A stretch of 64,000 nt of DNA from Marispirochaeta aestuarii (GTDB lineage: Bacteria > Spirochaetota > Spirochaetia > JC444 > Marispirochaetaceae), in assembly GCF_002087085.1 (NCBI RefSeq), contig NZ_MWQY01000012.1, positions 62,001 to 126,000 of the forward strand. Direction: 5' to 3'. Under the pieces are notes generated by a model. That model saw only the letters and a list, made by a program, of their open reading frames with translations, ran no database searches and was not told the origin of the DNA. Of this stretch, positions 2,201-52,066 are shown piece by piece. Position numbers and translations under genes: made by a program. Numbering within the stretch: the stretch's first letter is position 1; the number at the start of each line of letters is the position of its first letter.

Positions 2201-2209
2201 CGTGGTGTT

Positions 2210-2343: not shown

Positions 2344-2364
2344 TTCTGGTAAAAGGTTTCGGGT

Positions 2365-2573: not shown

Positions 2574-2587
2574 GATACCAGCGTTTT

Positions 2588-2692
2588 GAAACAAAGATAG
2601 AGAGGATGGAAAGGACTCTATACTAACTGTTGTATCCTGTGAAAAACGCTGTGCCCTTTGTGCATCCGTGGCTAATTCTTCCGATTATGTGA
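2588..2692. repeat. Further dispersed-repeat copies before the glycan locus
   Basis: 2588-2616 is another copy of the GGAACAAAGAT-type module (here beginning GAAACAAAGATAG). 2650-2680 reads TGCCCTTTGTGCATCCGTGG, which resembles the complementary strand of the CACAGAG-type module. The remaining bases up to the flippase gene show no gene. Confidence 0.55.
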
Positions 2693-2733
2693 ATCTTTGT
2701 TCCATAAAAAATGAAAGGAAAACATAACCATAT

Positions 2734-4521
2734 ATGAAATCACCATTTGGACATATTGGGGCGGTTATTAATCTCTTAGAGCCGCGAGAAAAGCGAAGCC
2801 TGATGTTTGTATTTGCAGGTGCTGTCTTCATGTCGATGATACAGATTATCGGCGTAGGCAGTATTATGCCCTTTATTTCAGTTGCCGCGAACCCGGATAT
2901 TATTCACAACAACGAATACTTGAGCTGGGCTTACAATTTTTTCAGATTTAGTAATGAAACCTCGTTTCTCATTGTCTTGGGAGTTGGTGTCTTAATCTTT
3001 ATGTTGCTGACTAACGTCAGCAAAGCATTTTACCACTATATTAAGGTGCGTTTTACAAATATGCGCCGTCATACACTTGCTCTTAAGCTTATGAAGGGAT
3101 ATCTGAGTCAACGGTATCCGTATTTTCTACAGAGGAACAGTTACGATTTTATTCGAAACATTACTGCTGAAATTGCTCAAATGATCCAGGGGACCTTGAT
3201 TCAGTTCGTGGAACTTATTTCCATGGCTATTCAGGTGTTAATGCTCACGTTGTTTCTGTTTGTCGTAAACCCTGGTGGTACAGCCATAATGTTTGGCGCT
3301 ATCGTATTTGTATATGGGCTTATCTATCTCGGTGTTCGCAAGCTGGTAAAAAGGCTGGGAGTCGAGCGTTTTGAAATGAGCGTAGCCCTGTCAAGGATTG
3401 TGAGCGAAGCCTTCTGGGGGATCAAAGAGGTAAAAATACTTGGTGTAGAAAATGTTTTTTTGAATGAATTTTCTCCTCCCTCCAGAAAACTTGCCTGGAG
3501 TGTTTCAAAGAACGAAGTAATAAGCGATGTTCCCAAGTTTACACTGGAAGCAATTGCATTCTCCGCGATAATGATATTTGTACTGGTTACAATGGTCAAA
3601 TCTGGAGATTTCTCCGATATAGCAGCGACTGTTTCGTTGTATGCATATGCAGGGTACCGATTGATCCCAGCCGTACAGGGATTGTTCAAAGCTCTGACGA
3701 AACTACGCTATGGAGTCGGTACCGCCGATAAAATCCTGAATGAGTTTAATGATATAAAAGAAGGAGAAATTCTTCCAACAGGTTTGATTAAAGAACTGCC
3801 TTTTTCACAGGATTTACGCTTAGATAACCTGGAGTTTACATACCCTGAGGCGGATAAGCCTGTATTACGGCAGATTAACCTGACAATATCCAAAAATACC
3901 CTGGTTGGGTTCGCCGGTAAAACCGGTTCGGGAAAGACGACACTTATAGATATTATTCTCGGGCTGCATAGACCCGGGAAAGGCCGTCTGCTCGTTGATA
4001 ATACAGAAATAAATGAAGATAATCTTCGTAACTGGCAAAAAAATCTGGGTTACGTACCGCAGACAATATACCTGAGCAACGACAGCATAGCCTCGAATAT
4101 TGCGTTTGGAATCCGTCGTAATGAAATTGACATGGAGGCGGTAAAACGCGCGGCTCATATGGCACAGCTTGACGATTTTATTGAGACTGAACTTGCGCAG
4201 GGATATGACACGGAAATAGGTGAGCGGGGCGTTCGCTTAAGCGGCGGTCAGCGGCAGAGGGTTGGAATCGCACGCGCACTGTACCGTAATCCGGATGTGC
4301 TGATCCTTGATGAAGCAACCAGTGCCCTGGATGTGCATACAGAAGAAGCTGTTATGGAGGCTATAGATTTACTGATGGGGACCAAAACAATTATTATGAT
4401 AGCCCATCGACTGAGTACCCTGGAAAAGTGCAATACCATATATTTACTGGATCAAGGTAATATAATCGATGCCGGGACACATGCCGAGCTGATTCAGCGA
4501 AATCCATATTTTTCTAAGTGA
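2734..4521 (+). CDS. ABC transporter, PglK-like glycan/lipid flippase
   Basis: A 595-residue half-transporter with permease and ATPase fused. Residues 1-330 contain about six membrane segments; the N-terminal text VGSIMPFISVAANPD and the stretch YAYAGYRLIPAVQGLF closely follow Campylobacter PglK, the flippase of undecaprenyl-PP-oligosaccharides. The ATPase has Walker A GKTGSGKTT near residue 397, Q-loop YVPQTIYLSNDSIA, signature [15 protein letters not shown] near 502, Walker B DVLILDEATSALD and AHRLST. It is the first gene of the glycan locus, so export of a lipid-linked oligosaccharide or LPS/O-antigen-like unit is a reasonable inference. MsbA-like lipid transport is the alternative. Confidence 0.85.
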   Translation: MKSPFGHIGAVINLLEPREKRSLMFVFAGAVFMSMIQIIGVGSIMPFISVAANPDIIHNNEYLSWAYNFFRFSNETSFLIVLGVGVLIFMLLTNVSKAFYHYIKVRFTNMRRHTLALKLMKGYLSQRYPYFLQRNSYDFIRNITAEIAQMIQGTLIQFVELISMAIQVLMLTLFLFVVNPGGTAIMFGAIVFVYGLIYLGVRKLVKRLGVERFEMSVALSRIVSEAFWGIKEVKILGVENVFLNEFSPPSRKLAWSVSKNEVISDVPKFTLEAIAFSAIMIFVLVTMVKSGDFSDIAATVSLYAYAGYRLIPAVQGLFKALTKLRYGVGTADKILNEFNDIKEGEILPTGLIKELPFSQDLRLDNLEFTYPEADKPVLRQINLTISKNTLVGFAGKTGSGKTTLIDIILGLHRPGKGRLLVDNTEINEDNLRNWQKNLGYVPQTIYLSNDSIASNIAFGIRRNEIDMEAVKRAAHMAQLDDFIETELAQGYDTEIGERGVRLSGGQRQRVGIARALYRNPDVLILDEATSALDVHTEEAVMEAIDLLMGTKTIIMIAHRLSTLEKCNTIYLLDQGNIIDAGTHAELIQRNPYFSK

Positions 4522-4696
4522 TTATTGCTTAATTGAAGAGTATCACCGTACCAATATTTTCTCTTAGATATAAATGAATAAGACCTATGCGTAATAATTA
4601 TTCTCTATTTAGTGAGATAGATTATTAATTGTCATATAAATTACTAAATCGAACGTTGTTCAAAAGTACTATGCACTACTGAATCCAGGAGGGTTT

Positions 4697-5380
4697 ATGA
4701 AAATATTTTGTCCATCAATTCGACCTCAATATTATGAAGAATTAGCACAATCTGTAAAACCATTTGAAACAGAGTATATCAATGGAAATGGTTTTTCTTC
4801 ATTTGCGGCGCTATGCAACAAAATATTTAGAGAAAATGATCAAAGTTTTTTCATTATTGCTAATGATAAAGCAAGGCCTAATCCAGACAACATCGATAAA
4901 ATGCTAAACTTGCATAAGGATGGATTTGGATTTGTTGCACTATACAGAATGGGTTTTTTCTTGGTAGATAAAATAGTTCTTTCTAAGGTAGGATTGCTAG
5001 ATGAAAGATTTTCTGACGGCGGTTATGAGGATAATGATTATTATATCAGATTAAAAAAAAATAATATAGGTTCCTATATAAATGAGGAAATAAATTATTT
5101 ATTGAATGTAACAACTTTATGGAAACATAAAAAAAGTGCCGAGTTCTTTAGTCGCAAGTATAAAATTGATCATCGTAATAAAAAAATAATTGTAAAAATA
5201 TCTGATGAAGAAAAAAATACAGTTGAATGTTTTGATCGAGGAAAATTAAAAAATTGGGAAGAAAGTTTTCTTTGTACAATTCCACTAGTTACTTATAAAG
5301 CGCATTTTGAGGTAGTTTTAAAAGAATATGATATAGTTAATGAAAGAAAAATAAAAAAAGTATTTAGTTGGTGGAAATAA
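4697..5380 (+). CDS. Glycosyltransferase-like protein (GT2/GT-A remnant or short form)
   Basis: A 227-residue, strongly A+T-rich gene with a good ribosome site (AGGAGG, seven bases before ATG). FFIIANDKARPNPDNIDKML resembles the acidic-motif region of GT-A enzymes, and LDERFSDGGYEDNDYYIRL matches the conserved G-LDE-F-xGGxEDxDxxxRL segment seen in GT2/GT7-like galactosyltransferase C-terminal regions. It lacks a clear N-terminal UDP-binding strand motif such as VSVIIPxYN, so it is either a divergent member or a shortened one. Surrounding glycan genes support a role in sugar transfer. Codon use is more A+T-rich than nearly any other gene in the window, suggesting recent acquisition. Confidence 0.6.
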   Translation: MKIFCPSIRPQYYEELAQSVKPFETEYINGNGFSSFAALCNKIFRENDQSFFIIANDKARPNPDNIDKMLNLHKDGFGFVALYRMGFFLVDKIVLSKVGLLDERFSDGGYEDNDYYIRLKKNNIGSYINEEINYLLNVTTLWKHKKSAEFFSRKYKIDHRNKKIIVKISDEEKNTVECFDRGKLKNWEESFLCTIPLVTYKAHFEVVLKEYDIVNERKIKKVFSWWK

Positions 5381-6305
5381 ATTACACTATAAATAAGGTT
5401 CCATAAAAAATAAATACTCTTAGAATAGTTAGTTTGTTAGGATTTCTCTTGATAAAGTGCACAAAATGTGTACAGAAATAGTATTCATCTGACAGTTGTC
5501 GCTAAATAAATATCTCTATGCTACTGAAATTGGTGTTTTTTTCTCCGATCCAGTCCAAGAACGTTCGCAGTTTAGATAACTAAAATAAGCTAACATTTCC
5601 TCTGATTGGGTTAAGCAACCAAACCAAACCAATCCTTAAAGAGAGTTAACAGTGCCAAAGATTACTACAATCTTCTATCTCAGTTCATAGGAGACTCTGC
5701 CCCTCCTTTTGAGATGCTGAAATGGATAATAGTAGAGTATCTGATGCTGTTCAAAGTAAAAATGCTCAGTATATATCGGGTCTGAATCTAAAAATGATGA
5801 CTTCAGTGTATGAAATTTTAAATAGAAAATTCCCGAAAATGATTATAGAATAGAAATATCCGAAGGGCGTGATTGCGAAATAAGTCAGGCTCAACGGAGC
5901 AATCAGAAGGTGAAGAACCGCCTGAATCTTTCTAACGACGGCGCTGGATTGCAAGAATGTCGGGTTTGAAGAAATCGGGAACCGGATCTACCGAATTTTC
6001 TTCCGAGAAAACTTGCTAAGGTGTGCAGATATGAAAGAGCTGATGGTCTACAATATCGTAACCTATAAGGAAGCGCTATAATTGTAAGGGATGTGCTTGG
6101 TTAATAGTCCGTGATGTCTTTGTTTGTACAAGAATTGTTATTCGCTTTACCGTAGTATGTATTTGTCATCAATTTCAAATAGAAAAGAAACTTCAATTAA
6201 CAGATAAACTGGGGATCTGAGTATTACAGGTTATTTTAGTCCTCTTTTATTGAATTGTAGATTATTTCTGAATTTTATTTTGGAAAACCGAAAAGGAAAC
6301 TTCAA
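5381..6305. other. Long A+T-rich non-coding stretch with gene debris
   Basis: 925 bases between two glycosyltransferase genes. No intact gene is supported. It contains a transposase relic at 5884-6081 (listed separately). Frames elsewhere are short and interrupted. A stretch before 6306 (AAAAGGAAAC) supplies the ribosome site of the next gene. Confidence 0.6.
5884..6081 (+). pseudogene. IS481-type transposase C-terminal relic
   Basis: One frame reads VRLNGAIRR, then two stops within ~15 bases, then IFLTTALDCKNVGFEEIGN followed by RIYRIFFRENLL and MKELMVYNI before the TAA at 6079. This follows the C-terminal end of IS481/integrase-core transposases, where VRKV-x-G-x-I-x-W-K-G-x-x-IFLS-x-AL-x-G-x-x-VGLEEI-x-D-x-x-W-x-V-x-F is typical. 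A small indel would restore WKNRL between the two halves. The catalytic DDE core is gone. It marks past insertion activity inside the glycan island. Confidence 0.5.
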
Positions 6306-7499
6306 TTGAAAATATTATTTGTTGCTATGACTAATAGTATTCATACGGCACGTTGGATTGAACAACTAAGAGGAACATCACTTTGTGTGCATGTTTTTCC
6401 TTCAATAAATACAGATAGAATACACCCATTACTAAAAAGGAAAAATGTTATTTTTCATATTCCTTGGCAGATTAAATATCGTAAAAATAATTTATTTAGA
6501 AAATTATTTTTACGGATATATTATCATTTTTATGGAAAAACAAATCGATTTTATGTCGAAGATCAATTAAGAAAAGTAATACTAAAAATTAAACCGGATA
6601 TCATCCACAGTCTTGAAACACAACATAGTGGGTATCTTGTAAATGCTGTAAAATCTAATTGGTATGGTCATTTTAGGTTTCCTAAATGGATCCATACGAA
6701 TTGGGGAAGTGATATATATCTTTTCGGAAGACTCACTGATCACGTACAATCTATACGCCATGTATTAGCTAATTGCGATTATTATTCATCTGAAAGTTAC
6801 CGAGATAATACTCTCGCGAGACAGTACGGATTTAGTGGACATGTTTTTGCTCCTTTTCCTAATACAGGAGGATTCCATCTATATAATTTGCTAGAGTGCA
6901 GATCCAGGGTAAAAACTAGTGAAAGAAAGGAAATAATGGTGAAAGGGTATCAGGGGTGGGCTGGACGAGCGCTGTTCGCATTAGCCGCACTAAAGATGAT
7001 ATCTGAGCACCTAAGTGGATACACTATAAATATTTTTAGTAATCCTGATGGATATGATATAAAAATCGCGGCTGAATTATTTGAACATGATACTGGAATT
7101 AAGGTTAATGTGTTACCTTATATTAATAATTATAATGAAATGTTAAGTCTCTATTCGCGGGCAAGAATATATATAGGGTTAAGCATTAGCGATGCAATTA
7201 GTACTTCTTTATTAGAATCAATGGTAATGGGAACCTTTCCAATACAGTCTGATACATCTACTGCAAACGAATGGATAAATAATGGTGTAACAGGTTTCAT
7301 CGTTCCCCCCGAAGATTTAATTAAGATATCAAATAAAGTTAGAGTAGCTATATTTAACGACTCGTTAGTAGATAACGCTGCAGAAAAAAATTTAGTAATT
7401 GCAAAAAATCGTTTAAACTATGACCTTGTTCGAAGAAAAACATTGGGAATTTATGATAAAATAAAAGCAGATATTGGAAAGGAAAGCTATGATGTTTAA
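6306..7499 (+). CDS. Glycosyltransferase family 4
   Basis: A 397-residue GT-B protein. The start is TTG at 6306, supported by AAAAGGAAAC upstream. The N-terminal MKILFVAMTNSIHTARWIEQL is the usual first strand and loop of GT4 enzymes. Near the C-terminus, GLSISDAISTSLLESMVMG and the text NGVTGFIVPPEDLIKIS match the nucleotide-sugar-binding E-x7-E region (here LLESMVMGTFPI) of the family. It overlaps the next gene by 11 bases, so it is translationally linked to the UDP-sugar enzymes. It is A+T-rich. Donor and acceptor are unknown; a surface glycan is inferred from context. Confidence 0.82.
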   Translation: MKILFVAMTNSIHTARWIEQLRGTSLCVHVFPSINTDRIHPLLKRKNVIFHIPWQIKYRKNNLFRKLFLRIYYHFYGKTNRFYVEDQLRKVILKIKPDIIHSLETQHSGYLVNAVKSNWYGHFRFPKWIHTNWGSDIYLFGRLTDHVQSIRHVLANCDYYSSESYRDNTLARQYGFSGHVFAPFPNTGGFHLYNLLECRSRVKTSERKEIMVKGYQGWAGRALFALAALKMISEHLSGYTINIFSNPDGYDIKIAAELFEHDTGIKVNVLPYINNYNEMLSLYSRARIYIGLSISDAISTSLLESMVMGTFPIQSDTSTANEWINNGVTGFIVPPEDLIKISNKVRVAIFNDSLVDNAAEKNLVIAKNRLNYDLVRRKTLGIYDKIKADIGKESYDV

Positions 7500-8499
7500 T
7501 CAAAATACTTTAATGATAACCGGTGGAACCGGTTCTTTTGGAAATGCTGTTTTAAAGCGTTTCTTGGATTCAAATATTAAAGAAATTCGTATTCTCTCTC
7601 GCGATGAAAAAAAACAGGATGATATGCGAAAGAAGTACGACAATGACAAGTTAAGGTTTTATATTGGAGATGTAAGAGATTATAATTCAATCAAAGATGC
7701 ATTTATTGGTGTGGATTATGTTTTTCATGCTGCAGCGTTAAAACAGGTTCCCTCCTGCGAGTTTTTTCCAATCGAAGCGGTGAAAACAAATATCATTGGA
7801 AGTGACAATGTTATTACTGCGTGTATGGCCGCGGGGGTAAAACGTGCGGTGTTTTTAAGTACAGACAAGGCGGCATATCCTATCAATGCGATGGGTATGA
7901 GTAAGGCATTGATGGAAAAGAATGTAATTGCACGAAGTCGAAGTATTGATCCTAAAAATGGCCCGATATTATGCATTACCCGATATGGAAATGTTATGGC
8001 GTCCCGTGGTTCGGTTATACCATTGTTTTCTAAACAGATAGAGAATAAAAAACCTGTTACCATAACAGATCCTTCAATGACCAGGTTTTTAATGTCCCTG
8101 GATGATGCTGTTGATCTGGTATTATATGCATACAAACATGGAAAATCCGGAGATTTGTTTGTACAGAAAGCCCCCGCGTGTACTATAAATGATCTTGCTG
8201 ATGCGATAATGGCATATAAAGATATTACTGTAGAAAAAAATATTATTGGAACCAGACATGGAGAGAAGGTGTTTGAAACGCTGGTGACAAAAGAAGAAAT
8301 GGTAAGGTCTGTTGATAAAGGAGATTATTTCCGAATACTCCCTGATAATCGAGATCTGAATTATTCTCAATATTTTTCCGAAGGTGATTCAAGTGTACAG
8401 CAAATACAGGAATACACCTCGCATAACACTCACCGCTTGGACGTTCAAGGTGTGCTGAAATTGTTAAAAAAACTTGGAAACTTAGAGGAACAGGCATAG
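7489..8499 (+). CDS. fnlA: UDP-GlcNAc 4,6-dehydratase / C5-epimerase (FnlA/WbjB/CapE family)
   Basis: An SDR enzyme of about 336 residues. ATG 7489 (or 7492) is preferred to the TTG at 7474 because AAAGG lies just upstream. Glycine motif TGGTGSFG, LSRDEKKQDDMR, HAAALKQVPSCEF and the variant active-site stretch STDKAAYPINAMGMSK are hallmarks of the inverting UDP-GlcNAc dehydratases (WbjB, CapE, FnlA); NAMGMSK contains the Met that replaces Tyr in this subfamily. The product would be UDP-2-acetamido-2,6-dideoxy-L-arabino-4-hexulose. The next two genes encode the reductase and 2-epimerase that usually follow, and all overlap by 1 to 4 bases. Confidence 0.85.
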   Translation: MMFNQNTLMITGGTGSFGNAVLKRFLDSNIKEIRILSRDEKKQDDMRKKYDNDKLRFYIGDVRDYNSIKDAFIGVDYVFHAAALKQVPSCEFFPIEAVKTNIIGSDNVITACMAAGVKRAVFLSTDKAAYPINAMGMSKALMEKNVIARSRSIDPKNGPILCITRYGNVMASRGSVIPLFSKQIENKKPVTITDPSMTRFLMSLDDAVDLVLYAYKHGKSGDLFVQKAPACTINDLADAIMAYKDITVEKNIIGTRHGEKVFETLVTKEEMVRSVDKGDYFRILPDNRDLNYSQYFSEGDSSVQQIQEYTSHNTHRLDVQGVLKLLKKLGNLEEQA

Positions 8500-9368
8500 T
8501 GAGTAATCGTATTCTCGTTCTCGGCTCGTCTGGCATGGCTGGTCATGTAATAACAAAATATTTGGGACAGAAAGCTGAATTTGTAGTGTTCGATTGCGGA
8601 CCCAGAAAAAAACTTACTCCCAAAACATTTTTATGCGATATTGTCAGTGACACTGAATTAGCTGGTGTATTAGATGAAACCCGCCCGGATGTAATTATTA
8701 ATTGCATTGGTGTTCTGGTTAAAGAATCAGAGAATGATCATGTCTCAGCTATTACAGTAAATACTCTTCTTCCTCATCGTTTGTCTAAGATTTGTGAGAA
8801 CAGGAATATAAAGTTCATTCATTTAAGCACAGATTGTGTCTTTTCCGGAACTGCAGGTCCATATAAAATAGATGATTGTAAAGACGCATTCGATTTCTAC
8901 GGGAAAACAAAGAGTCTCGGAGAGATTGATTATGGAGATCATTTAACAATAAGAACTTCAATTGTCGGCCCTGAACTTGGTCATCATGGAACAGGTTTGT
9001 TGCACTGGTTTTTTACACAGAAAGGTACAATAAACGGCTATACAAGGGCGCTGTGGTCCGGGGTGACTACTCTGGAACTCGCACGAATTATCGAAATTAT
9101 TGTCAAAGAAAAAATAAGTATATCCGGTATTCAACAAATATCCGTGACTGAGGGTATTTCTAAATTTGATTTGCTATCGATCGTGAATAAGAAATTTCAT
9201 CGTGGGTTAAATATTGCCCCGGTAGATGAACCTAAAGTTGACAAGCGACTGATTCATAGCGCACCAGAAAATATAGAGCCAAATCCTTATAATAGACAGT
9301 TTGATGATTTATATTTATGGATGCAGGAATATAAGCAGTTATATAAGGAGTATTTTACATCCAGATGA
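8499..9368 (+). CDS. RmlD-like NADPH-dependent sugar-nucleotide 4-reductase
   Basis: A 289-residue SDR with GSSGMAGH at the N-terminus, STDCVFSGTAGPYK and YGKTKSLGE, the RmlD-type catalytic YxxxK. GTG 8499 overlaps the preceding TAG by one base. In the UDP-L-FucNAc pathway the corresponding enzyme (WbjC/CapF/FnlB) is longer and carries a C-terminal cupin; this protein has no room for one. Single-domain RmlD-like reductases (WbvR type) instead serve UDP-L-RhaNAc/UDP-L-QuiNAc formation. I therefore infer the L-QuiNAc branch. It overlaps the next gene by four bases. Confidence 0.78.
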   Translation: MSNRILVLGSSGMAGHVITKYLGQKAEFVVFDCGPRKKLTPKTFLCDIVSDTELAGVLDETRPDVIINCIGVLVKESENDHVSAITVNTLLPHRLSKICENRNIKFIHLSTDCVFSGTAGPYKIDDCKDAFDFYGKTKSLGEIDYGDHLTIRTSIVGPELGHHGTGLLHWFFTQKGTINGYTRALWSGVTTLELARIIEIIVKEKISISGIQQISVTEGISKFDLLSIVNKKFHRGLNIAPVDEPKVDKRLIHSAPENIEPNPYNRQFDDLYLWMQEYKQLYKEYFTSR

Positions 9369-10486
9369 AAGTAATGGTAATTGTCGGCACCCGACCTGAA
9401 ATAATCCGTTTATCCAGAGTCATTATTCTTCTTCGAGAGACTTTTGATTGTGTTTTTGTACATACTGGCCAAAACTATTCTTATGAGCTTGGCGAGATTT
9501 TTTATAAAGATCTCGAGTTAGATCCGCCCGATTACTATTTAAACGCCGTGGGAAATACTCTTGCTGAAACATTAGGCTTGATAATATCAAAGTCTGATGA
9601 AGTTATGGAAAAAGAGGCACCTGATGCACTCCTTGTTCTAGGGGATACAAACAGTGCTTTATCCGTTATTCCGGCAAAAAGAAGGAAAATCCCTATTTTT
9701 CATTTTGAAGCCGGGAATAGATGTTTTGACCAACGCGTACCGGAAGAAATAAACAGGAGAATCGTAGACCATACAGCGGATATTAATTTGACGTATAGTG
9801 AAATCGCCAAGCAGAATTTACTTCGTGAGGGATTACCGATGGATAGAGTGTTCAATATCGGAAGTCCAATGTTCGAGGTCCTTGAATGCTATAAAGATAA
9901 GATTAACCAGGCTAAAGTGCTTGAAAAATTCGGTCTCAAACCTGATCACTATTTTGTATTAAGTGCGCATCGGGAAGAAAATGTCGACAGTAAAGACAAG
10001 CTAAATGATTTGATGTCTGCTATAGAGAGTGTTTTAGTTGATTACCCGTTTCCGATTCTTTTTTCTGTACATCCGAGGACAGAAAAGAAATTGAAAGAGC
10101 ATGGCCTTATGCTGAATGACAGAATCATAGCCTCTAAACCTCTATGTTTTACAGAATATGTAGCGCTGCAAAAGCATGCATATTGTGTTTTATCTGATAG
10201 TGGAACGATAACGGAAGAATCTGCAATTCTGAATATCCCTGCTTTGAACTTGAGGGAGACACATGAGAGACATGAGGGGATGGAAAAAGCAGCTGTAACC
10301 ATGACCGGCTTTGATCCGAAGTTAATTAAAATCGGCATAAACATTGCGCGACGACAAGTCGATAGAACAGAAGTTCAACTCAACAGTATTCCGGACTATG
10401 CTCAGAAGAATATTTCAGAAAAAGTAGTTAAAATAATTCTTAGCTATACCTCATATATCAATAGGAAATCGTGGCTAAAAGTGTGA
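9365..10486 (+). CDS. UDP-N-acetyl-L-sugar 2-epimerase (WbjD/FnlC family)
   Basis: A 373-residue non-hydrolysing UDP-GlcNAc 2-epimerase homologue. KVMVIVGTRPEIIRLSRVI, LVLGDTNSAL, HFEAGNRCFDQRVPEEINRR, SAHREENVD, SVHPRTEKK and LSDSGTITEESAI are all present. The EAGNRCFDQRVPEE version is that of the WbjD/FnlC/CapG group acting on UDP-L-RhaNAc-type intermediates rather than of WecB, which has EAGLRT. ATG 9365 overlaps the previous stop by four bases. Together with the two preceding genes it completes synthesis of UDP-L-QuiNAc or UDP-L-FucNAc in the cytoplasm. Confidence 0.85.
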   Translation: MKVMVIVGTRPEIIRLSRVIILLRETFDCVFVHTGQNYSYELGEIFYKDLELDPPDYYLNAVGNTLAETLGLIISKSDEVMEKEAPDALLVLGDTNSALSVIPAKRRKIPIFHFEAGNRCFDQRVPEEINRRIVDHTADINLTYSEIAKQNLLREGLPMDRVFNIGSPMFEVLECYKDKINQAKVLEKFGLKPDHYFVLSAHREENVDSKDKLNDLMSAIESVLVDYPFPILFSVHPRTEKKLKEHGLMLNDRIIASKPLCFTEYVALQKHAYCVLSDSGTITEESAILNIPALNLRETHERHEGMEKAAVTMTGFDPKLIKIGINIARRQVDRTEVQLNSIPDYAQKNISEKVVKIILSYTSYINRKSWLKV

Positions 10487-10562
10487 ATTTCGGTCAATGA
10501 TCAAGCTTCCAGACAGGATATATATTCTCCAGTAAACCAGCAAACATAACAGAGGAAGATGA

Positions 10563-11543
10563 ATGGCATCGATTGCTATAAAACCTAAAGTATCTATACT
10601 GATTCCCGTATATAACGGTTCAAATTTTCTTAAGCAGGCTATTGACAGCGCTATAGGACAGAATTACACAGAAAAGGAAATCATCGTAATCAATGATGGA
10701 TCGAATGACAACGGCGCTACCAGAAAAGATGCTGAGTCATTCGTTCCCAATATTATGTACTATGAGAAGGAAAATGGCGGCGTCGCATCTGCATTAAACC
10801 TGGGAATAGAAAAATCAACCGGAGAATATATTTCGTGGCTTAGTCATGATGATTTTTATTATCCAAATAAGCTTGAAGATCAAATCTCTTACGTGACGAG
10901 TCTGGAAAACAATAAAGTTATTGTATTTTCGAATGAAGATATGGTAGATGAGAACAATATTGTTATTCGGCCCGCATTTCAACGTAAATTTGATAACTCT
11001 AAGTTTTATAGAGAATTATTAGTTAAGAAATTTATAGGAGGTTGTTCCTTGCTCATTCCCAGGAAAGCTTTTGATAGGTGTGGGGAATTTGATGAATCGC
11101 TTCGAACAGTCCAGGATTACGATATGTGGTTCAGGATGCTCAATAACGGCTATACATTTTCTTATTATCAGATAACATCTGGCGCAAAAAGGCGACACGG
11201 TGGACAGGATTCTCAACAAAAAAAAGAACTTCGCAGAAAAGAGAAAATTGTTCTGTTAAAAAGAGCTTTAACATCAATGACGGATGAAGTACTTCAAAAA
11301 AACTTTCCTAAAGGGTCCGGTGATTTCTTCACGATTGCCAGATCATTTTATAAACAGGGACTGTCTGAAGTTTATTTGTATTGTTTTGAAAGAGGTCTAA
11401 GGATAAGAACAGGTTTTAGGCAGCGATTATTGACAGTCCCCAGCTGTATATATACAAAGATATATCCTTTTTTCTATGAAAAGAGAAAAGCGATGAAAGA
11501 AATAATCAAAATCTTCTTGAAATCTGTAAGTAAGAAAAGATAA
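10563..11543 (+). CDS. Glycosyltransferase family 2
   Basis: A 326-residue GT-A enzyme. KVSILIPVYNGSNFLKQAID opens the domain, VINDGSNDNG is the nucleotide-binding turn, ISWLSHDDFYYPNKL holds the DxD-like acidic motif (here HDD) and FDESLRTVQDYDMWFRM is the acceptor-side ED-like motif. The ~100 C-terminal residues are basic and probably lie at the membrane surface. AGAGGAAG before ATG 10563 is the ribosome site. Only four bases separate it from the next glycosyltransferase. Sugar specificity cannot be read from sequence. Confidence 0.87.
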   Translation: MASIAIKPKVSILIPVYNGSNFLKQAIDSAIGQNYTEKEIIVINDGSNDNGATRKDAESFVPNIMYYEKENGGVASALNLGIEKSTGEYISWLSHDDFYYPNKLEDQISYVTSLENNKVIVFSNEDMVDENNIVIRPAFQRKFDNSKFYRELLVKKFIGGCSLLIPRKAFDRCGEFDESLRTVQDYDMWFRMLNNGYTFSYYQITSGAKRRHGGQDSQQKKELRRKEKIVLLKRALTSMTDEVLQKNFPKGSGDFFTIARSFYKQGLSEVYLYCFERGLRIRTGFRQRLLTVPSCIYTKIYPFFYEKRKAMKEIIKIFLKSVSKKR

Positions 11544-11547
11544 CTGA

Positions 11548-12726
11548 ATGAAAATCCTCCATTTCATTCCAAAGTTCTCTTCAATATCGCAATCCTTTAT
11601 TTATGATTTGCTATTACGATTGGATAAGATAGATCATGTCGACAACACAGTTCTGACGTATAAACGTAGTCAGGAAAAAGAACGCCCGTATAAGGATGTT
11701 AAGATAATAAAATCAAATACATTAATGGAACGGTTAATGTATAAAATATTGAGAAAAATCGGCTGTAAACGTATCGTCGCACCGAACATTCGTGCCCTGA
11801 GAAGGGAACTTAATAAAAAAAATGATTATGATATATTTCATGCTCATTTTGGTAATTCCGCATATAAAGCATTCATTGCTGACGATTCTGTAGAGTTTGC
11901 CATTAAAACAGTAGTAAGTATTCATGGAACGGACATAACAAAGAACTTTGCATCCAAGAAAAAGTATAGAGAGGTATTGATTTCGGCAGCGAATCGAGGT
12001 TGCATATTTCTGGCTAATTCACAGTTTTTAGCTTCAAAAGCAATTGAATTAGGACTACCGCGTGAAAACATAAAAATAGTCTACAACACTGTAAATGAAA
12101 AATTTCTCAACGCTGAACGGGAGTTACCATACGCTGATGGTCCCCTCAGAATAATCAGTATCGGGAGACTGATTGATGTCAAAGGACATGAGTATTTGAT
12201 TCGGGCTGTACCGGTTTTAAAACGGAATATCAAAAATATACAGCTGAGTATTGTCGGAGATGGTATCAATCTTAGTAAGCTCAAGAACCTTGTGCATGAC
12301 TTGGGAATTGATGAGAATGTACATTTTTTGGGTTCCGTATCACACGATAAACTGCCTGAGATTTTATCAAATCATCATATTTATGTTCAGCCATCGATAA
12401 TTTACGAGAAGACCGGACAGGAAGAGTCCTTTGGGATAGTTATTCTTGAAGCATTAGCAGTTGGTTTGCCGGTAATTGTAACAAATACCGGTGGAATGCC
12501 GGAAGTCGTTAATTTTACTTCATCGAAATGGGCAAAAATCATTCCTCAGAAGGACGAGATGAGTATAGCGAAGGCTGTTAATGAAATAATAGATAATAAT
12601 AAGAGTTTTAAATTGAAAGATCCGGATCGAATTAATATCTTAGAAAAATACACTGCTGAAAAGCAAACAGAAACACTTCTCGATATTTATTCTGATGTTA
12701 TTGGTAATTATGCTGATGAAACTTAA
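11548..12726 (+). CDS. Glycosyltransferase family 4 (WcaL/AmsK-like)
   Basis: A 392-residue GT-B enzyme. KILHFIPKFSSISQSFIYD starts the first Rossmann fold; FHAHFGNSAYKAF, TVVSIHGTDI and ISIGRLIDVKGHEYLI are typical; SFGIVILEALAVGLPVIVTN is the EX7E nucleotide-sugar motif. The arrangement resembles the amylovoran/colanic acid WcaL-AmsK group. It begins four bases after the preceding stop. The downstream ParB-fold gene overlaps its 3' end. Confidence 0.87.
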   Translation: MKILHFIPKFSSISQSFIYDLLLRLDKIDHVDNTVLTYKRSQEKERPYKDVKIIKSNTLMERLMYKILRKIGCKRIVAPNIRALRRELNKKNDYDIFHAHFGNSAYKAFIADDSVEFAIKTVVSIHGTDITKNFASKKKYREVLISAANRGCIFLANSQFLASKAIELGLPRENIKIVYNTVNEKFLNAERELPYADGPLRIISIGRLIDVKGHEYLIRAVPVLKRNIKNIQLSIVGDGINLSKLKNLVHDLGIDENVHFLGSVSHDKLPEILSNHHIYVQPSIIYEKTGQEESFGIVILEALAVGLPVIVTNTGGMPEVVNFTSSKWAKIIPQKDEMSIAKAVNEIIDNNKSFKLKDPDRINILEKYTAEKQTETLLDIYSDVIGNYADET

Positions 12727-13597
12727 AAGAAAAATATTAGGGACTGTAAGAAAACGATTGAATACCTTGAAACTCGGAGAAAAATCTGAACCAGTGCTGC
12801 AGGATCCTCGGGAGTTCCTCTACTCAAATCTAATACCGAGATTTACTGTTGAATTACCGGTAAAAAAAGGCAGGTATCTTGGTTGGTTTGATCTTGACAG
12901 AGAGGGTTTTTCGCCGATTATTCTGGCACTTCATAATTGGAATCAAAATGGGAAGAATAAGGAATCTTTTTATGGGATCCTTGCGCTTTACGCAAAGGTC
13001 GTTGTAATAGATAACCCGAATAAAAAATTATTTTTCAACTCTGAGTTTACTGTTTTTCCGGAAAAATCAGAAGCTCGAAGAATGATATACCCTTGGGATA
13101 CAGGTTCTGTTGAAAGCAGGTATAACGAGCATCTTGAAAAGGTAAGAAAAGAGAATAAGAAATACGGCCTGATGAATTCTTTTGAATCGATTGGTGACAT
13201 TAATTCATGTTCTGATAAAAAACTAAAAATGGAAGCAGAACGGTTTTGTCGACTTGCTGAATCCATAGGCGAATATGGATATAAGAAACAGCCACGGGGG
13301 CAAATTTCTGGTAGTGTATATCTTGCAGGACCTGAGTATGTCTGGGCGGTAGATGGGGGGCACCATCGAGCCCCAGTCCTATCATATCTGGGGTATGAGA
13401 GAATTCCTGTCGTAGTACGTAGATTTGTCAGAAGGGAAGAGGTTGCATTCTGGCCTCAGGTTGTTTCCGGACTCTATAGTGAAGAAGCAGCGCTCCATGT
13501 TTTTGATAACTTCTTCTATAGTCGCCAACCAGATTCCTTTAACGAATGGAAAGAGCATCCTGTCGTAGAAGAAATAAGGCGGAAGAATATTAAATGA
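12710..13597 (+). CDS. ParB/sulfiredoxin-fold protein in glycan locus
   Basis: About 295 residues; starts at 12695, 12710 and 12716 are all possible and none has a clear ribosome site, so translational coupling with the preceding gene is likely. The region around residues 195-230 (GQISGSVYLAGPEYVWAVDG, then HHRAPVLSYLGYERIPVVVR) has the ParB N-terminal pattern G-x-HR-x2-AL-x2-LG-x3-IPV. The rest has no recognisable domain and there is no membrane segment. Similar unassigned proteins occur in polysaccharide clusters. ParB-fold proteins can bind nucleotides, so a role as a nucleotide-dependent kinase or regulator of glycan building is possible but not shown. Confidence 0.5.
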   Translation: MLMKLKRKILGTVRKRLNTLKLGEKSEPVLQDPREFLYSNLIPRFTVELPVKKGRYLGWFDLDREGFSPIILALHNWNQNGKNKESFYGILALYAKVVVIDNPNKKLFFNSEFTVFPEKSEARRMIYPWDTGSVESRYNEHLEKVRKENKKYGLMNSFESIGDINSCSDKKLKMEAERFCRLAESIGEYGYKKQPRGQISGSVYLAGPEYVWAVDGGHHRAPVLSYLGYERIPVVVRRFVRREEVAFWPQVVSGLYSEEAALHVFDNFFYSRQPDSFNEWKEHPVVEEIRRKNIK

Positions 13598-14115
13598 AGA
13601 ATATGATAAAGAAGATCAGGATAATTAAAAAGAAAATTCTGTGTTCTATGTATACTCGAGCTGCTTACCGTAAAGCCGGATCTGTGGGGAAAAATTTAAA
13701 GGTGTATTTCCCTGTAAAACTTACCAAAAATACGTTTATCGGTAACGATTGCGGGTTCAATGAGTTAAAGATATTCGGCCATGGTAAGGTAACAATCGGC
13801 GATAACTTTCATTCCGGAAGAGATTGCAAGATCATCACACATGTTCATAATTATGATGAGGGAGTTACCATACCATTTGACAACACTTTTATTGTAAGGG
13901 ATATACAAATAGAGGATTTTGTCTGGATTGGATCATACGTAATAATCCTGGGTGGTGTTACCCTGGGTGAAGGTTGCATTATTCAGGCGGGCTCTGTTGT
14001 GGTAAACGACATTCCCCCTATGGCTATTGCCGGCGGACATCCTGCAAAGGTTTTTAAATATCGGGATACTGAACACTTTACAAAGCTGAAAAACGAAAAG
14101 AAATTCTTAAAATAA
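13594..14115 (+). CDS. Hexapeptide-repeat acyl/acetyltransferase
   Basis: A 173-residue left-handed beta-helix transferase of the WbbJ/MaF type. Repeats such as TFIGNDCGFNELKIFG, VTIGDNFHSG, WIGSYVIILGG and LGEGCIIQAGSVV fit the [LIV]-G-x4 hexapeptide pattern, with THVHNY carrying a likely catalytic His. PPMAIAGGHPAKVFKYR is the standard end of the domain. ATG 13594 overlaps the previous TGA by four bases, with GGCGGAAG upstream. Probably adds an acetyl group to a sugar in the surface glycan. It is convergent with the next gene. Confidence 0.83.
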   Translation: MKNMIKKIRIIKKKILCSMYTRAAYRKAGSVGKNLKVYFPVKLTKNTFIGNDCGFNELKIFGHGKVTIGDNFHSGRDCKIITHVHNYDEGVTIPFDNTFIVRDIQIEDFVWIGSYVIILGGVTLGEGCIIQAGSVVVNDIPPMAIAGGHPAKVFKYRDTEHFTKLKNEKKFLK

Positions 14116-46103: not shown

Positions 46104-47387
46104 ATGTACAGTTATAAAATAGAGGGGAATATCCCCTTAAAGGGGACAATAAAAGCGAGCGGCAACAAGAATGCCGCCTTGCCCTGTCTTGCAGCCTGTC
46201 TCCTGACCGATCAGCCGGTTATTTTACGGAACATTCCTGATATTGAAGACGTTTCGGTAATGCTTCAGATATTGAACACCCTTGGTGCAAAAGCGGAGCA
46301 TCGGGGAAACGGCACTGTGGCGGTCTGTTGTGCCGACACTCCCAAGTCTGAGGTTCCCGCCGACCAGGCCCGGGATATCAGGGCCTCGATTCTCTTTGCC
46401 GGTTCCCTGCTGGCACGGACCGGAAAGGTCCTGCTTCCTCCTCCCGGGGGAGACGTAATCGGCCGCAGGCGGCTGGATACCCACTTCATGGCTTTTTCGG
46501 AACTGGGAGCGCGGGTCGAGGTGGACGGAATCTTCAAGCTCACCGCCAACAAGCTGGTGGGGGCGGATCTGTTTCTGGACGAGGCCTCGGTTACGGCAAC
46601 GGAAAACGCCCTGATGGCATCGGTAACGGCGGAGGGCACCACGGTAATCCGAAACGCCGCTTCCGAGCCCCATGTTCAGGACCTCTGCAACATGCTGAAC
46701 TCCATGGGGGCTAAAATCAGCGGAATCGGTTCCAACATCCTGACCATCCAGGGGGTTAAAAAGCTTAAAGGTGCCGATTTTTCCATCGGCGCGGACTTCA
46801 TGGAGGTGGGAAGCTTTATCGGTCTTGCGGCGGTTACCCGGGGAGAGATCGAGATTCAGAATGCCAATCCCGAGCACCTGCGCATGACAAAAATCGCCTT
46901 TAACAAACTGGGAATCCACTGGGAGACCGACGGCAGCACCATCCGGGTTCCGGCGGGTCAGAATATGCGGGTCATGCCCGATCTCGGGGGTATGATTCCC
47001 CATATCGATGATGCTCCATGGCCGGGGTTTCCTGCGGACCTGACCAGCATTATTACCGTCGTTGCCACCCAGGTTGAAGGAACGGTGCTGGTTCATGAGA
47101 AGATGTTCGAATCACGGCTCTTTTTCGTGGACAAGCTTATCGGCATGGGGGCAATGATTGTGCTTTGCGATCCCCACCGGGCTGTTGTTACCGGTCCGTC
47201 CCGTCTTCGGGGTGCTGACCTTATTTCTCCCGATGTACGTGCCGGCATGGCCATGGTTCTGGCCGCCCTCTGCGCGGAGGGGACGAGCATGATACACAAT
47301 GTTTACCAGATCGAACGGGGATACGAAAATCTCTGTGACCGCCTGGCGAATCTGGGTGCGAGGATCGAGCGTATTTCCAATCGTTAA
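46104..47387 (+). CDS. murA: UDP-N-acetylglucosamine 1-carboxyvinyltransferase with Asp at the fosfomycin Cys site
   Basis: A 427-residue EPSP-synthase-family enzyme: [20 protein letters not shown], residues [52 protein letters not shown] and [10 protein letters not shown]. It transfers enolpyruvate from PEP to UDP-GlcNAc in peptidoglycan synthesis. The catalytic/fosfomycin-binding Cys (Cys115 of E. coli, motif PGGCxIGxRxxDLH) is Asp117 here, in [20 protein letters not shown]. Asp variants stay active but are fosfomycin-insensitive, as known for mycobacterial and chlamydial MurA. It converges with the next gene, overlapping by four bases. Confidence 0.92.
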
Positions 47388-47791: not shown

Positions 47792-49499
47792 TCGTGCTTT
47801 GTCCTGCAAGCAGAATAAGGCTACCGGTAAAGAGCAGTGCCTGCACAAACAGCATCGCCACGAGGCTCAGCAGGAAACCGCTCTGAAGCAGCAGGTATAA
47901 CTGCAGGAGCCGGCTGGCATAGAGATACAGGTCTGACAGAATAAAAACGACAACGGGAATCACCGGAAGCAGCAGCACATGATACCATCGGCGACCGAAA
48001 CGGGCCCGCAGGGCCCAGCCGATGGCGATGCTCAAGGTACCGAATATCAGCAGACTGAAGGGCCGCATACTCCTCATCAAAAGCTCACTCTCCACCGAAG
48101 CGGGGTGAAATCCCCGCTCTTCGTATCCCTTTCGCAGGGCAAGAAGCTCGTGAAGGTACTGCAGTTTAAGGGAGGATTCTGTCATACTGTAGCCCGGTAT
48201 CTCTGTAATCGAGGGAGAGAGAGGCTTCAGGGTTGATGGGGTTCCCCGGGGCGAGCCTTCCAGGTAGACCGGTTCATACACAAGGTCCGGAATGTTCCGG
48301 TGTATTGATTTGAGCATGATAAGCGTACCGTCGGATTCTATGATCTTTCCGGCGGGCACTGTAAAGTGGTAGATAAGGTCTCCCCGGGGTGAAATCCCGA
48401 GAAATTCGATATCAAACGCATAGGCCAGGGTTCCAAGGGACACAAAACGGTTGAAATAGACAAACTCCCGGAGCTCGGGTTCCGATTTATTCAGAAAGAA
48501 GATCCTGTGCCTCCCCGGGATGGGACGTACGTGATCGGTCTCATCGATAAAAAAGGTCTCCTGCCGTACCCGTTTCAGAGCTTCTGAGCTGAAGGTCTGT
48601 ATATCCCTGTCCAGGGGATACTCGTTAAGCAGATCCGTAAAGAGATAATAGGCCTCAATGGTATTTCCCCGGTTCAGCTGGCTGTACGCTTCGCGTTTGC
48701 GGCGGAACAGGTCCCCCGATTCCTTTGCTTCTCTGCTGAATTCTGATTCCTTGATTCTGTTCCAGGCCTCGGCGGCGACCCGTCGGGCATCTTCACGCTG
48801 GGGATCGAGCTGCATTGCCATGTCAGCGTAATAGTGGGCGGAGTAATAATCCCTGCGGGCCAGGTACTCCTGTGCTGTAGCTGTCAGTTCCCCGGCATCC
48901 TGATTCAGCATCTCCGAGCGCCTGGTTTCCGTTTCCTCAGACCTGGAAAGCCCTTCATCGTCTTCATCAAGCTCCAGGGCGGCAGCGGCTTTTTCCCGGC
49001 GCGCCGATACCTCTTCATTATCGGGATCGATGGAAAGATAATAATCGAAGTAGGGCAGCGCTTCCTCGAGCCTGTTCTGAAGGAACAGACGATCGCCCTC
49101 CTTCAGGGAGCCTTCGGCGAAGCGGGTGTTCCCTTTGTACTCTTCAAGACGTACCCTGAGGCCGGGGGCAAAACCTTCAGCGAACATGGTATAGACCGCA
49201 ACAAGAAAGATAAAAATGAGAAGCGAAGTTCCGGTTATCCGGTGGAAATTCAGGGATGAGTTGGGGGTTCCGGAGGCTTTGAAAAAGAAGCTGAAGCTGA
49301 GGAGGATTGCGGAAATTGTAACCGGCATGAATGCTTCAATTGTCCTGATGCCGGCTTCGGTGAAGACCCACTGCCACAGGTATCCGGGAAGAAGTTCCGA
49401 GGCAGGAAAATGGATAAGACCGAGGATAAAAAAACCGAGATATGCAAGGAAGTTGAAGAGCAGAATGATTAAAAGCAGGCGGCGACCGACGTTTTTCAT
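47778..49499 (-). CDS. Membrane protein with TPR-like middle region
   Basis: A 573-residue protein. Four N-terminal membrane segments (residues ~8-28, 50-70, 88-104) precede a soluble part with TPR-like helical pairs (NRLEEALPYFDYYLSIDPDN, YLARRDYYSAHYYADMAMQL, GNTIEAYYLFTDLLNEYPLD), then a beta-rich region, and four more hydrophobic segments at the C-terminus (residues ~470-570). No assigned family. It overlaps the next upstream gene by four bases, and both encode related-looking inner-membrane proteins. It may be a spirochaete-specific envelope protein. Confidence 0.6.
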   Translation of the reverse strand: MKNVGRRLLLIILLFNFLAYLGFFILGLIHFPASELLPGYLWQWVFTEAGIRTIEAFMPVTISAILLSFSFFFKASGTPNSSLNFHRITGTSLLIFIFLVAVYTMFAEGFAPGLRVRLEEYKGNTRFAEGSLKEGDRLFLQNRLEEALPYFDYYLSIDPDNEEVSARREKAAAALELDEDDEGLSRSEETETRRSEMLNQDAGELTATAQEYLARRDYYSAHYYADMAMQLDPQREDARRVAAEAWNRIKESEFSREAKESGDLFRRKREAYSQLNRGNTIEAYYLFTDLLNEYPLDRDIQTFSSEALKRVRQETFFIDETDHVRPIPGRHRIFFLNKSEPELREFVYFNRFVSLGTLAYAFDIEFLGISPRGDLIYHFTVPAGKIIESDGTLIMLKSIHRNIPDLVYEPVYLEGSPRGTPSTLKPLSPSITEIPGYSMTESSLKLQYLHELLALRKGYEERGFHPASVESELLMRSMRPFSLLIFGTLSIAIGWALRARFGRRWYHVLLLPVIPVVVFILSDLYLYASRLLQLYLLLQSGFLLSLVAMLFVQALLFTGSLILLAGQSTSDSV

Positions 49500-50437
49500 C
49501 TGCCCGTCTCGTTTTCGGGGAAGCGGCGGAAAGGAATGAAGATAAGGTCCCAGAGAACAAGCACCGCTCCCGCTCCTGTGAAGATGTAGTGTATAACATC
49601 GGTTAACCTGCGCTCCGGGACAAATGCCTTGAACAGCTCCTGAGCCTCAGATCCCAACAGCAGGGCCGAGAGAAATACAACGATTCTCATGACAAAGAGC
49701 AGATAGACCGCATTCAACAGTGGCCAGGAGGTAAAGCGTCCAAAAATCCAGCAGGCGCATATCAGAAAGCCGAAGGAAGCAATAACCAGCACCGCCTGAT
49801 ATAACGATCTGCTGTAGCTGTAGGCGAAAAAAGAGCTGATCACCGTAAAATCCTGAAATATTCCTCTGATAACAGGCGGGGTCTGCAGGGCCTCGTTGAA
49901 GAAAGGATTTTTTGGTATGCGATCAAGGGATATGTTGCCCAGGCTCACCACTTTGTCGCTGACCTCCTGGATTTTCCCCGCCGTCAGGTTCAGATTACCG
50001 GAAACGGACATAATTACCCCAGGATCACCCTGAGTAAAGGATTTCTCGATGTAGACAGCCCCATCCCGGTAGGAGTGGATTTTTCCCGGGATCTCCACCG
50101 GGGAAGAAACCCGTCGCGGCAGGGGCTGATAGGGACGGAGGTACGCGATCTGCAGGAAAAGCAGGCCGGAAAAACTCAGCCAGAGAGCGATGAACATCAG
50201 CCAGGGAATACCTTTGCCTCCCTGCAGCATCAGGATCAGAATTACCAGAGCGACAAGGGATGCAGGAACCAGTACTGCGTACAGGCTGCGAAAAATAAGC
50301 CCGGCATGTTCATGCATCCCGGTAATCTGCATGGGGTTTTCGCACCAGCTGTACACATAGACGCCCAGTGTAAGTATAAAAGCGCATAACAGGTAGATGA
50401 GAAGATACTTTACAGGAATAAGAACTGTCCCTTTCAC
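49496..50437 (-). CDS. Multi-pass membrane protein, unknown
   Basis: About 313 residues if translation begins at GTG 50437 (KGTVLIPVKYLLIYLLCAF is then the N-terminal segment); an open frame to 50536 exists but has no ribosome site. Hydrophobic segments occur at residues ~5-25, 50-70, 80-100 and four more after residue 190; a central soluble region (VEIPGKIHSYRDGAVYIEKS, SVSGNLNLTAGKIQEVS) may face the periplasm and form a bactofilin- or LptF-like beta structure. No family assigned. Linked to the following gene by a four-base overlap. The 317 bases upstream contain a DnaA-box cluster. Confidence 0.55.
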   Translation of the reverse strand: MKGTVLIPVKYLLIYLLCAFILTLGVYVYSWCENPMQITGMHEHAGLIFRSLYAVLVPASLVALVILILMLQGGKGIPWLMFIALWLSFSGLLFLQIAYLRPYQPLPRRVSSPVEIPGKIHSYRDGAVYIEKSFTQGDPGVIMSVSGNLNLTAGKIQEVSDKVVSLGNISLDRIPKNPFFNEALQTPPVIRGIFQDFTVISSFFAYSYSRSLYQAVLVIASFGFLICACWIFGRFTSWPLLNAVYLLFVMRIVVFLSALLLGSEAQELFKAFVPERRLTDVIHYIFTGAGAVLVLWDLIFIPFRRFPENETGR

Positions 50438-50510
50438 TATGCTCACTTCGAAACGAATCGTAGCATGAGGACCGCCCCCTGACAAGCATTCAAAATGTAA
50501 TACGCACAAC

Positions 50511-50743
50511 TTATCCACATTGGATTTCTGGTACATCTACTAAGGTTTGGGAACAGAAATTTACTATTTCTTTGTATAGCGTGCAGAACTGCAATGGAGT
50601 TTTTGAAGATATGGGTTTAATTCATTATCCAGAAAGAACTTATTTGTCCTGCCGTGTTCGCCCTGTACAGGCACGCTTTCAGCAAAATGCTTATGCTGTA
50701 TGTATTTAGCTGTTATCCGGAACTTATTCAGAACTTATCCACA
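50511..50743 (+). other. DnaA-box cluster
   Basis: Two perfect TTATCCACA boxes (50511-50519 and 50735-50743), plus close relatives TTATCCAGA (50625-50633), TTATTCAGA (50724-50732) and TTATCCGGA (50713-50721). The last three start exactly 11 bases apart and all five have the same orientation. The region is A+T-richer than its neighbours. dnaA itself is not in the window. Confidence 0.6.
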
Positions 50744-50754
50744 ATCTATTCAGA

Positions 50755-51441
50755 TCAGCGGAGCATATAGCCCCCGGGACGGCAGGTCAGGATGACAGTA
50801 CGAACCTCCGGAGGGAGGGCTGCTTTCATTTTTTTCCGCAGTTTTGCGATATGCATGTCAATTGCCCGGGATTCTTCACGGTGGACTCCCCACAACAGGT
50901 AAGACAGCAGTTCCTTTTCCACACGCTTCTGCCGGTTTCGTACCAGGGTTCGCAGTATCGTTTCCTCCGCAGGACTCAGTATTGCACTTCCCCCGGGACC
51001 CAGACATTCGTTGTTTCTCAGACGCAGGTCTCCCCAGGGGTAATCGAGGTTGACGGCATTACGAATCTGCTGTGCTCTGGTCAACAGTTCCCGCTCGTCC
51101 CAGGGTTCCTTGAGATAATCGCTGCAGCCGGCAAGAAAACTGCCCGGAAGGCCGTAGGCGGGTCCATATACAAAAACAGCTTTTCCCGTCAGGAAAGGAA
51201 CCGATCGCAGCCAGAACAGGCAGCTGAGGGGAATTAAGTAGAGATCTATCCGTGTGTCTGTGAGGGGTTCATCACTGAAGCAGAAGGCGATTCCTCTGTT
51301 TTCGCGGGCAAACAGATTCAGTCGAAGCTCCAGTTCTTCTTCCCGGGGCGCCAGATTGACAAGAATTCCCTGGGAAACTCCTGAGAAGAAAGAGGTGTAT
51401 ACATTCTTTTCGGGGATAAGTCCGGATTGATCAGCTTTCAC
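50755..51441 (-). CDS. PhoB-type winged-helix regulator with degenerate receiver
   Basis: A 228-residue protein with GTG start. Residues ~150-228 are an OmpR/PhoB winged helix: LSPAEETILRTLVRNRQKRV, LLSYLLWGVHREESRAIDMH and IAKLRKKM followed by TVILTCRPGGYMLR. Residues 1-125 have a receiver-like size, but the usual DD pair, phospho-Asp and Lys are not recognisable, so phosphorylation is unlikely and control may rely on protein or ligand contact. It has no neighbouring histidine kinase. Directly downstream, on its 3' side, is the DnaA-box cluster. Confidence 0.65.
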   Translation of the reverse strand: MKADQSGLIPEKNVYTSFFSGVSQGILVNLAPREEELELRLNLFARENRGIAFCFSDEPLTDTRIDLYLIPLSCLFWLRSVPFLTGKAVFVYGPAYGLPGSFLAGCSDYLKEPWDERELLTRAQQIRNAVNLDYPWGDLRLRNNECLGPGGSAILSPAEETILRTLVRNRQKRVEKELLSYLLWGVHREESRAIDMHIAKLRKKMKAALPPEVRTVILTCRPGGYMLR

Positions 51442-51514: not shown

Positions 51515-52066
51515 CTATCCCAGAAATACCTGCCCTGAATTGTCGATGGCCAGAATGGTTTTGCACTCGGAGCAGCGAAAACGTCCCGATTTGGTCGCCT
51601 TGAGTTTCTTGCCGCAGATCGGGCACTGGAAAATCTTCGGAAAAACATCGGTGGAACCGCTCTTTCCATCGGAATTGAAAAAATCAACCGCTTCGTTGAG
51701 ATTGTCCTTGATGTTAAAGAACTGAGAGAAACCGAGGAGCTGAAAAACTTCGTATACCTTGGGCTGGATCTCCAGCAGGACCAGATCGCCTCCCCGGGGT
51801 TTTACCGCCTTGAGAAATGCGGTAAACGAGCCAATTCCCGTACTGGAGACATAGTTGAGACCACCGCAGTTAAAAATCAGCTTGGTATAACCGCTTTCTA
51901 CAGCCCGGGTAACTCTTTTTTGAAAGAAGTTGGAATTATAGGTGTCGATATATCCTGTAAGATACAGCACCAGACATCCGTCGACGGAGTCGACTTTCTG
52001 CAGGCGGATCTTGAGGCTGTCGTCCTTTTCGTCGTCAAAACCAGCTACAATGTCGTTATTGCTCAT
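51515..52066 (-). CDS. STAS-domain protein with C-terminal zinc ribbon
   Basis: A 183-residue protein with AGAGG before the ATG. Residues ~28-130 are a STAS domain of the anti-anti-sigma type: CLVLYLTGYIDTYNSNFFQK, LIFNCGGLNYVSSTGIGSFT, where Ser74 or Ser75 aligns with the phosphoserine of SpoIIAA. Residues 148-168 are a zinc ribbon, CPICGKKLK and RCSECKT (Cys148, 151, 165, 168). The combination of partner-switch domain and zinc ribbon in one chain is unusual. The cognate kinase or phosphatase is not in the window. Confidence 0.78.
   Translation of the reverse strand: MSNNDIVAGFDDEKDDSLKIRLQKVDSVDGCLVLYLTGYIDTYNSNFFQKRVTRAVESGYTKLIFNCGGLNYVSSTGIGSFTAFLKAVKPRGGDLVLLEIQPKVYEVFQLLGFSQFFNIKDNLNEAVDFFNSDGKSGSTDVFPKIFQCPICGKKLKATKSGRFRCSECKTILAIDNSGQVFLG

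Follow-up and report, generated by a model that had tools for sequence, protein, structure and literature searches.

A tripartite DnaA-box element at the murA/STAS locus, a putative second copy of the oriC architecture in Spirochaetia

The DnaA boxes found between genes of the window (the whole stretch of 64,000 nucleotides of Marispirochaeta aestuarii DNA analysed here, positions 62001–126000 of contig C12 in a 4.21-Mb genome of 78 contigs) form one tripartite element, in which two DnaA arrays of like orientation flank a central palindrome. Comparison of relatives shows the element in many Spirochaetia families. We found no description of it in the open-licence literature.

The control of replication has been little studied in spirochaetes; in Borrelia burgdorferi, oriC has been placed between dnaA and dnaN with two hypothesized boxes only (PMC9879097). 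The arrangement described here, two arrays flanking a palindrome on a single helix face, yields a class rule for origin architecture drawn from sequence alone, which also locates oriC, reveals a second, separate copy in many Spirochaetia genomes and predicts a palindrome-binding factor. Spirochaetes thereby become a further, independent setting for testing how general the discrete origin-near DnaA sinks are that have been widely proposed from Escherichia coli and Bacillus.

Results

The initial annotation listed two perfect boxes (50511 and 50735) and three near-boxes (50625, 50713 and 50724) on one strand, and all five were found again, on the + strand, as was the 11-base step between the starts of the last three, to which a weak fourth unit can now be added (Table 1). 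Four of the five stand as DnaA boxes. The fifth, TTATCCAGA at 50625, was rejected, as it is part of the central palindrome and what is conserved there is the palindrome, not a DnaA box. Three perfect boxes occur in the window where about 0.5 are expected, and boxes with at most one mismatch number 24, as compared with 12.9 ± 3.6 in shuffles. Across the whole genome there are 49 perfect boxes and 18 matches to the reversed motif; the 163-kb contig C12 carries nine of the 49, with 1.9 expected (Poisson p = 1.6e-4). The right array is nearly unchanged in relatives, with a single base different in G002 and close matches in G001 and in Candidatus Marispirochaeta associata, the best match among the named records found with the STAS gene (97% protein identity). 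Beyond genome-wide motif counts, the sequence of the source genome was read on contig C12 and in selected stretches.

Table 1. Coordinates of the element and of the genes around it, numbered from the first base of the window.
Feature	Position	Strand	Remarks
murA	46104..47387	+	other conserved boundary of the locus
Membrane protein gene	49496..50446	-	weak DUF4131 similarity; start adjoins left array in the genus
Promoter-like site for membrane protein gene	50457..50485	-	9/12 match; 26 bp from left strong box
Left DnaA array, whole	50500..50519	+	weak and strong box, 11-bp period
Left array, weak box ATACGCACA	50500-50508	+	starts 11 bp ahead of the strong box at 50511
Left array, strong box TTATCCACA	50511-50519	+	perfect DnaA box
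Central 27-bp palindromic motif TTAATTCATTATCCAGAAAGAACTTAT	50617..50643	none	palindromic EM motif; class consensus approximately TTAATTnnTTATnnnnnATAAnnAATTAA
Right DnaA array, whole	50713..50754	+	9-mers with 2 bp between
Right array, box TTATCCGGA	50713	+	near-box
Right array, box TTATTCAGA	50724	+	near-box
Right array, strong box TTATCCACA	50735-50743	+	perfect DnaA box
Right array, box CTATTCAGA	50746	+	weaker fourth unit, in register
OmpR/PhoB-type winged-helix regulator, degenerate receiver	50755..51441	-	Pfam Trans_reg_C 1.6e-12
STAS/zinc-ribbon gene, conserved	51515..52066	-	box-independent anchor

Across 65 non-redundant elements, each end carries an array of three or more boxes in the order weak–strong–weak, with an 11-bp period and AG joints; at the left end a degenerate TTATNCACA is found 11 bp to either side of the strong box, and the A+T content of the interior is highest at its centre. 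Motif discovery on the interiors returned the palindrome with a log-likelihood ratio of 356, as compared with about 48 in dinucleotide shuffles, which were given fewer random starts than the real data. The window's own copy is degenerate, with 12 of 27 positions agreeing with its reverse complement, and is among the less symmetric copies; from its centre the left strong box is 115 bp away and the right one 109 bp. On the left, distances from the palindrome centre to the strong box group at about 85, 95, 106, 116 and 126 bp; on the right, they group at about 107, 119 and 127 bp. They are quantized with a best period of 10.6 bp, approximately one helical turn (p < 1e-4 on each side, as compared with jittered values). 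Box-to-box spacing is phased too, with p at or below about 0.003 if each genus contributes a single value (n = 68); this phasing is weaker in the STAS-chosen set described below (p 0.02–0.11, according to which period is taken). The DnaA of E. coli favours box pairs 2–3 bp apart in vivo (PMC11317965).

Conservation was assessed at 80 named spirochaete loci picked by the neighbouring STAS gene alone, independently of the boxes. A same-strand pair of TTATNCACA boxes 180–260 bp apart is carried by 39 of them, and all 39 pairs sit at one place, next to the 3' side of the regulator and STAS genes, while 60 permuted motifs gave a mean of 0.07 in the same 80 loci. When loci in 60 relatives were instead probed with the regulator, two same-strand box clusters 190–250 bp apart were found beside its 3' end at 18 of 29, so that the conservation of the boxes in relatives, which the initial annotation had put forward as a check, is borne out in both sets. 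The strict pattern of box, palindrome core and box occurs in 67 of 395 Spirochaetia genomes and the reversed pattern in none, in a sample of species representatives whose kinship is corrected only in part by per-genus sampling; in approximately 103 genomes of the other classes of the phylum the strict pattern was not found. These counts refute the idea that the boxes cluster by chance, which draws on the shortness of the motif and on nothing else, and which we regard as having next to no probability. The element is not universal, because about half of the STAS-chosen loci show no such pair at the stringency used, some of them owing to contig ends, at which many loci stop. Twenty further strict matches comprised 12 at the murA/STAS locus, six upstream of dnaA and two elsewhere.

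The element lies, as the initial annotation had said, among membrane and signalling genes, namely those for the membrane protein and the OmpR/PhoB-type regulator. The common gene order in relatives is NtrC, STAS, (YbjN), PspA, regulator, element, (YbjQ, anti-sigma, sigma), membrane gene, TPR, DnaJ and murA. The 3' end of the regulator gene marks the element in many families. The flanking gene nevertheless varies by family (membrane protein, YbjQ, murA or NtrC): the place of the membrane gene is taken elsewhere by YbjQ, murA or other genes, and in several families the murA stop codon directly adjoins the element. In several families it sits between convergent genes, that is, between two gene ends, so a promoter role does not hold for the element in general. 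An explanation by a terminator or promoter was also rejected in the window, where there is no terminator and the single promoter-like site does not rise above shuffles. The best Rfam match to an RNA gene in the intergenic region had E = 0.11, far below the gathering score, and a tRNA search of the window returned none. The regulator has no Pfam receiver match, although its N-terminal half resembles a degenerate receiver; it is an orphan that is kept beside STAS and PspA genes.

The only full-length dnaA of the genome is at 36.8 kb on C12, 75 kb from the array on the same contig, which agrees with the initial annotation in placing the array away from dnaA. The cumulative GC skew of C12 has its minimum at 36–44 kb, at dnaA, and rises steadily through the array at 112 kb, with no switch at the element on this contig; the array is therefore not the replication origin, and the suggestion that it might be oriC itself was dropped. 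A switch at the element is likewise absent in G002, G027, G028, G194, G146, G256 and G053, where the skew turns at or near dnaA; in G010 the cumulative skew is flat. The initial annotation would have yielded to a skew with no switch nearby combined with boxes not conserved in relatives; the skew does not switch, but the boxes are conserved.

A model of the palindrome was trained on elements at the murA/STAS locus only. On C12 it matches best at position 36261, in the dnaA–gyrB intergenic region upstream of dnaA, and second best at the element of the window. The palindrome was also detected in 20 of 21 dnaA-upstream regions, all outside the training set, at p ≤ 0.05 as compared with shuffles (16 of them at p < 0.01), and in most of these regions boxes stand at the same quantized distances from it. 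The oriC of the class thus appears to have the same plan as the element: two arrays of TTATNCACA in the same direction, a central palindrome and quantized distances. Because the model matches the dnaA–gyrB region best and recovers the palindrome upstream of dnaA so widely, we interpret the element as a second, conserved copy of the architecture that spirochaetes have at oriC. It is unlike oriC in that it lies 7–260 kb from dnaA in genomes with both on one contig, has no skew switch and stands beside murA, STAS and regulator genes. What the origin-like reading of the initial annotation had not recognized is the central palindrome, the layout in two arrays and the fact that the dnaA–gyrB oriC of the class shares them. 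Both copies are present in at least 12 genomes (G000, G001, G002, G012, G015, G020, G024, G027, G028, G037, G041 and G047), the palindrome of the element being weak in G001 and G015. In family f8 (G194, G010, G256 and G053), the murA copy alone was found in the stretches scanned (60–80 kb for G194, G010 and G256).

Discussion

We hold with moderate confidence that the element is an origin-proximal, non-coding DnaA-binding site for the control of initiation, acting like datA or the DnaA-box clusters of Bacillus. Binding of DnaA is suggested by the match to DnaA boxes, those of the dnaA–gyrB region included. DnaA would bind each array cooperatively, spreading from the strong box to the weak boxes 11 bp away, while a putative dimeric factor on the palindrome would bend or bridge the DNA; two DnaA oligomers, both seated on one side of the helix, could then meet through the bend or bridge in a complex that would mimic the one at oriC. 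Since the element would be duplicated soon after oriC fires, we propose that DnaA would be withdrawn or inactivated and early re-initiation prevented. The enrichment of perfect boxes in the genome and on C12 supports a control element; in E. coli, box enrichment near the origin has been linked to titration (PMC12371093). Several points count against this reading: the palindrome copy of the window is degenerate, a datA-like IHF site is lacking, about half of the STAS-chosen loci are without a box pair, titration alone would require neither a conserved palindrome nor phasing, and the left array is, in the genus, so close to a promoter-like site that gene regulation has a place among the possible functions.

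Several known DnaA-control systems come close to the element. At E. coli datA, intergenic non-oriC boxes flank an IHF site, and their spacing to this site is important (PMC4585315, PMC10950094). Like datA, which acts in DDAH, the element has non-oriC boxes with constrained spacing on both sides of a central motif, at which a protein would be bound. Unlike datA, it is centred on a 27-bp palindrome without an IHF consensus, its arrays are regular 11-bp head-to-tail repeats kept across many families of the class, and its layout matches the organism's own oriC. We looked for the IHF consensus WATCARNNNNTTR and found it in one of 65 element interiors (2.15 in shuffles) and nowhere in the window; the element was not filed as datA for this reason, and an IHF-centred datA homologue was rejected. 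Where the initial annotation wrote of an origin or a DnaA-control region, the origin-type architecture and its conservation in relatives have held up, whereas oriC itself is contradicted by the skew, and present evidence does not place the element with datA, given the lack of the IHF consensus, or with DARS. In Bacillus subtilis and Streptomyces, oriC-proximal clusters of DnaA boxes are described as repressing untimely initiation in work cited in PMC4585315 and PMC10950094. The element resembles these clusters as an origin-proximal group of several boxes near but outside oriC, and differs from them, as they are described in the open-licence literature, in its tripartite layout, conserved palindrome and helical phasing. 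Surplus boxes near the origin also recall the E. coli titration pattern, but that pattern is a diffuse density peak (PMC12371093) and here there is one discrete composite element. With E. coli DARS1 and DARS2 it has in common that it is a non-coding DnaA-box cluster away from oriC.

The likeness to oriC raises the possibility that the element is a second, conditional or back-up origin, an oriC-type initiator site that could load helicase and would be used rarely or under stress. The layout shared with oriC in the same genomes, the genomes that hold both copies and the three f8 genomes (G194, G010 and G256) in which the murA copy is the only tripartite match in the stretch scanned would fit such a role, but the skew turns at or near dnaA rather than at the element in G000 and in the seven relatives listed above, and in G276 the genes from dnaA to the element (dnaA, dnaN, yidC, jag and murA) are mostly directed outward from dnaA, which fits an origin there; we consider a back-up origin unlikely. 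The palindrome and phasing common to the two sites, and a distance to the origin that is variable yet origin-proximal, could belong to a structural site where DnaA and the factor on the palindrome tie the element to oriC in space, by handcuffing or in origin organization, instead of acting as a sink. The palindrome factor is putative, and the palindrome is presumably unlike the GC-rich parS type; we think such bridging quite unlikely. A broader view, more speculative than our preferred one and in our opinion rather unlikely, is that many Spirochaetia may possess two oriC-type elements of one plan, whose palindrome would be read by a putative class-specific origin-binding factor, the second being a dormant or conditional origin or a coupling partner of oriC.

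Two further readings look to the neighbouring genes. DnaA is a transcription factor in other bacteria, and the left array of the window adjoins the promoter-like site of the membrane protein gene, as a DnaA-dependent transcriptional switch of the membrane protein and regulator genes would have it. Such a switch is improbable, as the adjoining gene differs by family, several contexts are two gene ends with no promoter, no one consistent target promoter was found beside the boxes, and a phased two-array layout that matches oriC exceeds what a promoter site needs. OmpR/PhoB regulators bind 11-bp direct repeats, and with a regulator gene of this type adjoining the element the repeats might be its operator and not DnaA sites. 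We judge this very unlikely and rejected it as the main reading: the core of the element is the DnaA consensus TTATNCACA, the same as in the dnaA–gyrB boxes, and the element is kept in families f8 (murA/NtrC context) and f24 (STAS only) with no detectable adjacent regulator, where a very diverged one is possible.

Some observations concern DNA outside the element. Positions 2000–14000 of the window have a low GC content (0.34–0.42, as compared with 0.52–0.57 around them) and a strong positive GC skew, perhaps marking an acquired island. Outside the window, near the skew minimum, three DnaA boxes on the - strand lie between jag and ahcY (C12:44216-44401; L034:4216-4401) and may be part of the origin region; box pairs between jag and metK in other families mostly have no palindrome. 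These jag–ahcY/metK boxes were rejected as a third copy, the palindrome scoring low or missing at four of the five loci, with a partial match at one (L201). Box pairs 200–250 bp apart also occur in other gene contexts in families f12 and f26 (L206, L209, L185, L192, L183 and L196), for example beside a fructose-bisphosphate-aldolase-like gene; the palindrome is mostly missing, and these pairs were excluded from the count of elements. In G146 (L235–L240), a tripartite element lies approximately 5.3 kb upstream of dnaA in addition to the one at murA, which suggests that the oriC copy can move. Strict tripartite matches outside both the dnaA and the murA/STAS contexts were seen at L328 (G065) and L335 (G369), the latter with ideal spacing (94/107).
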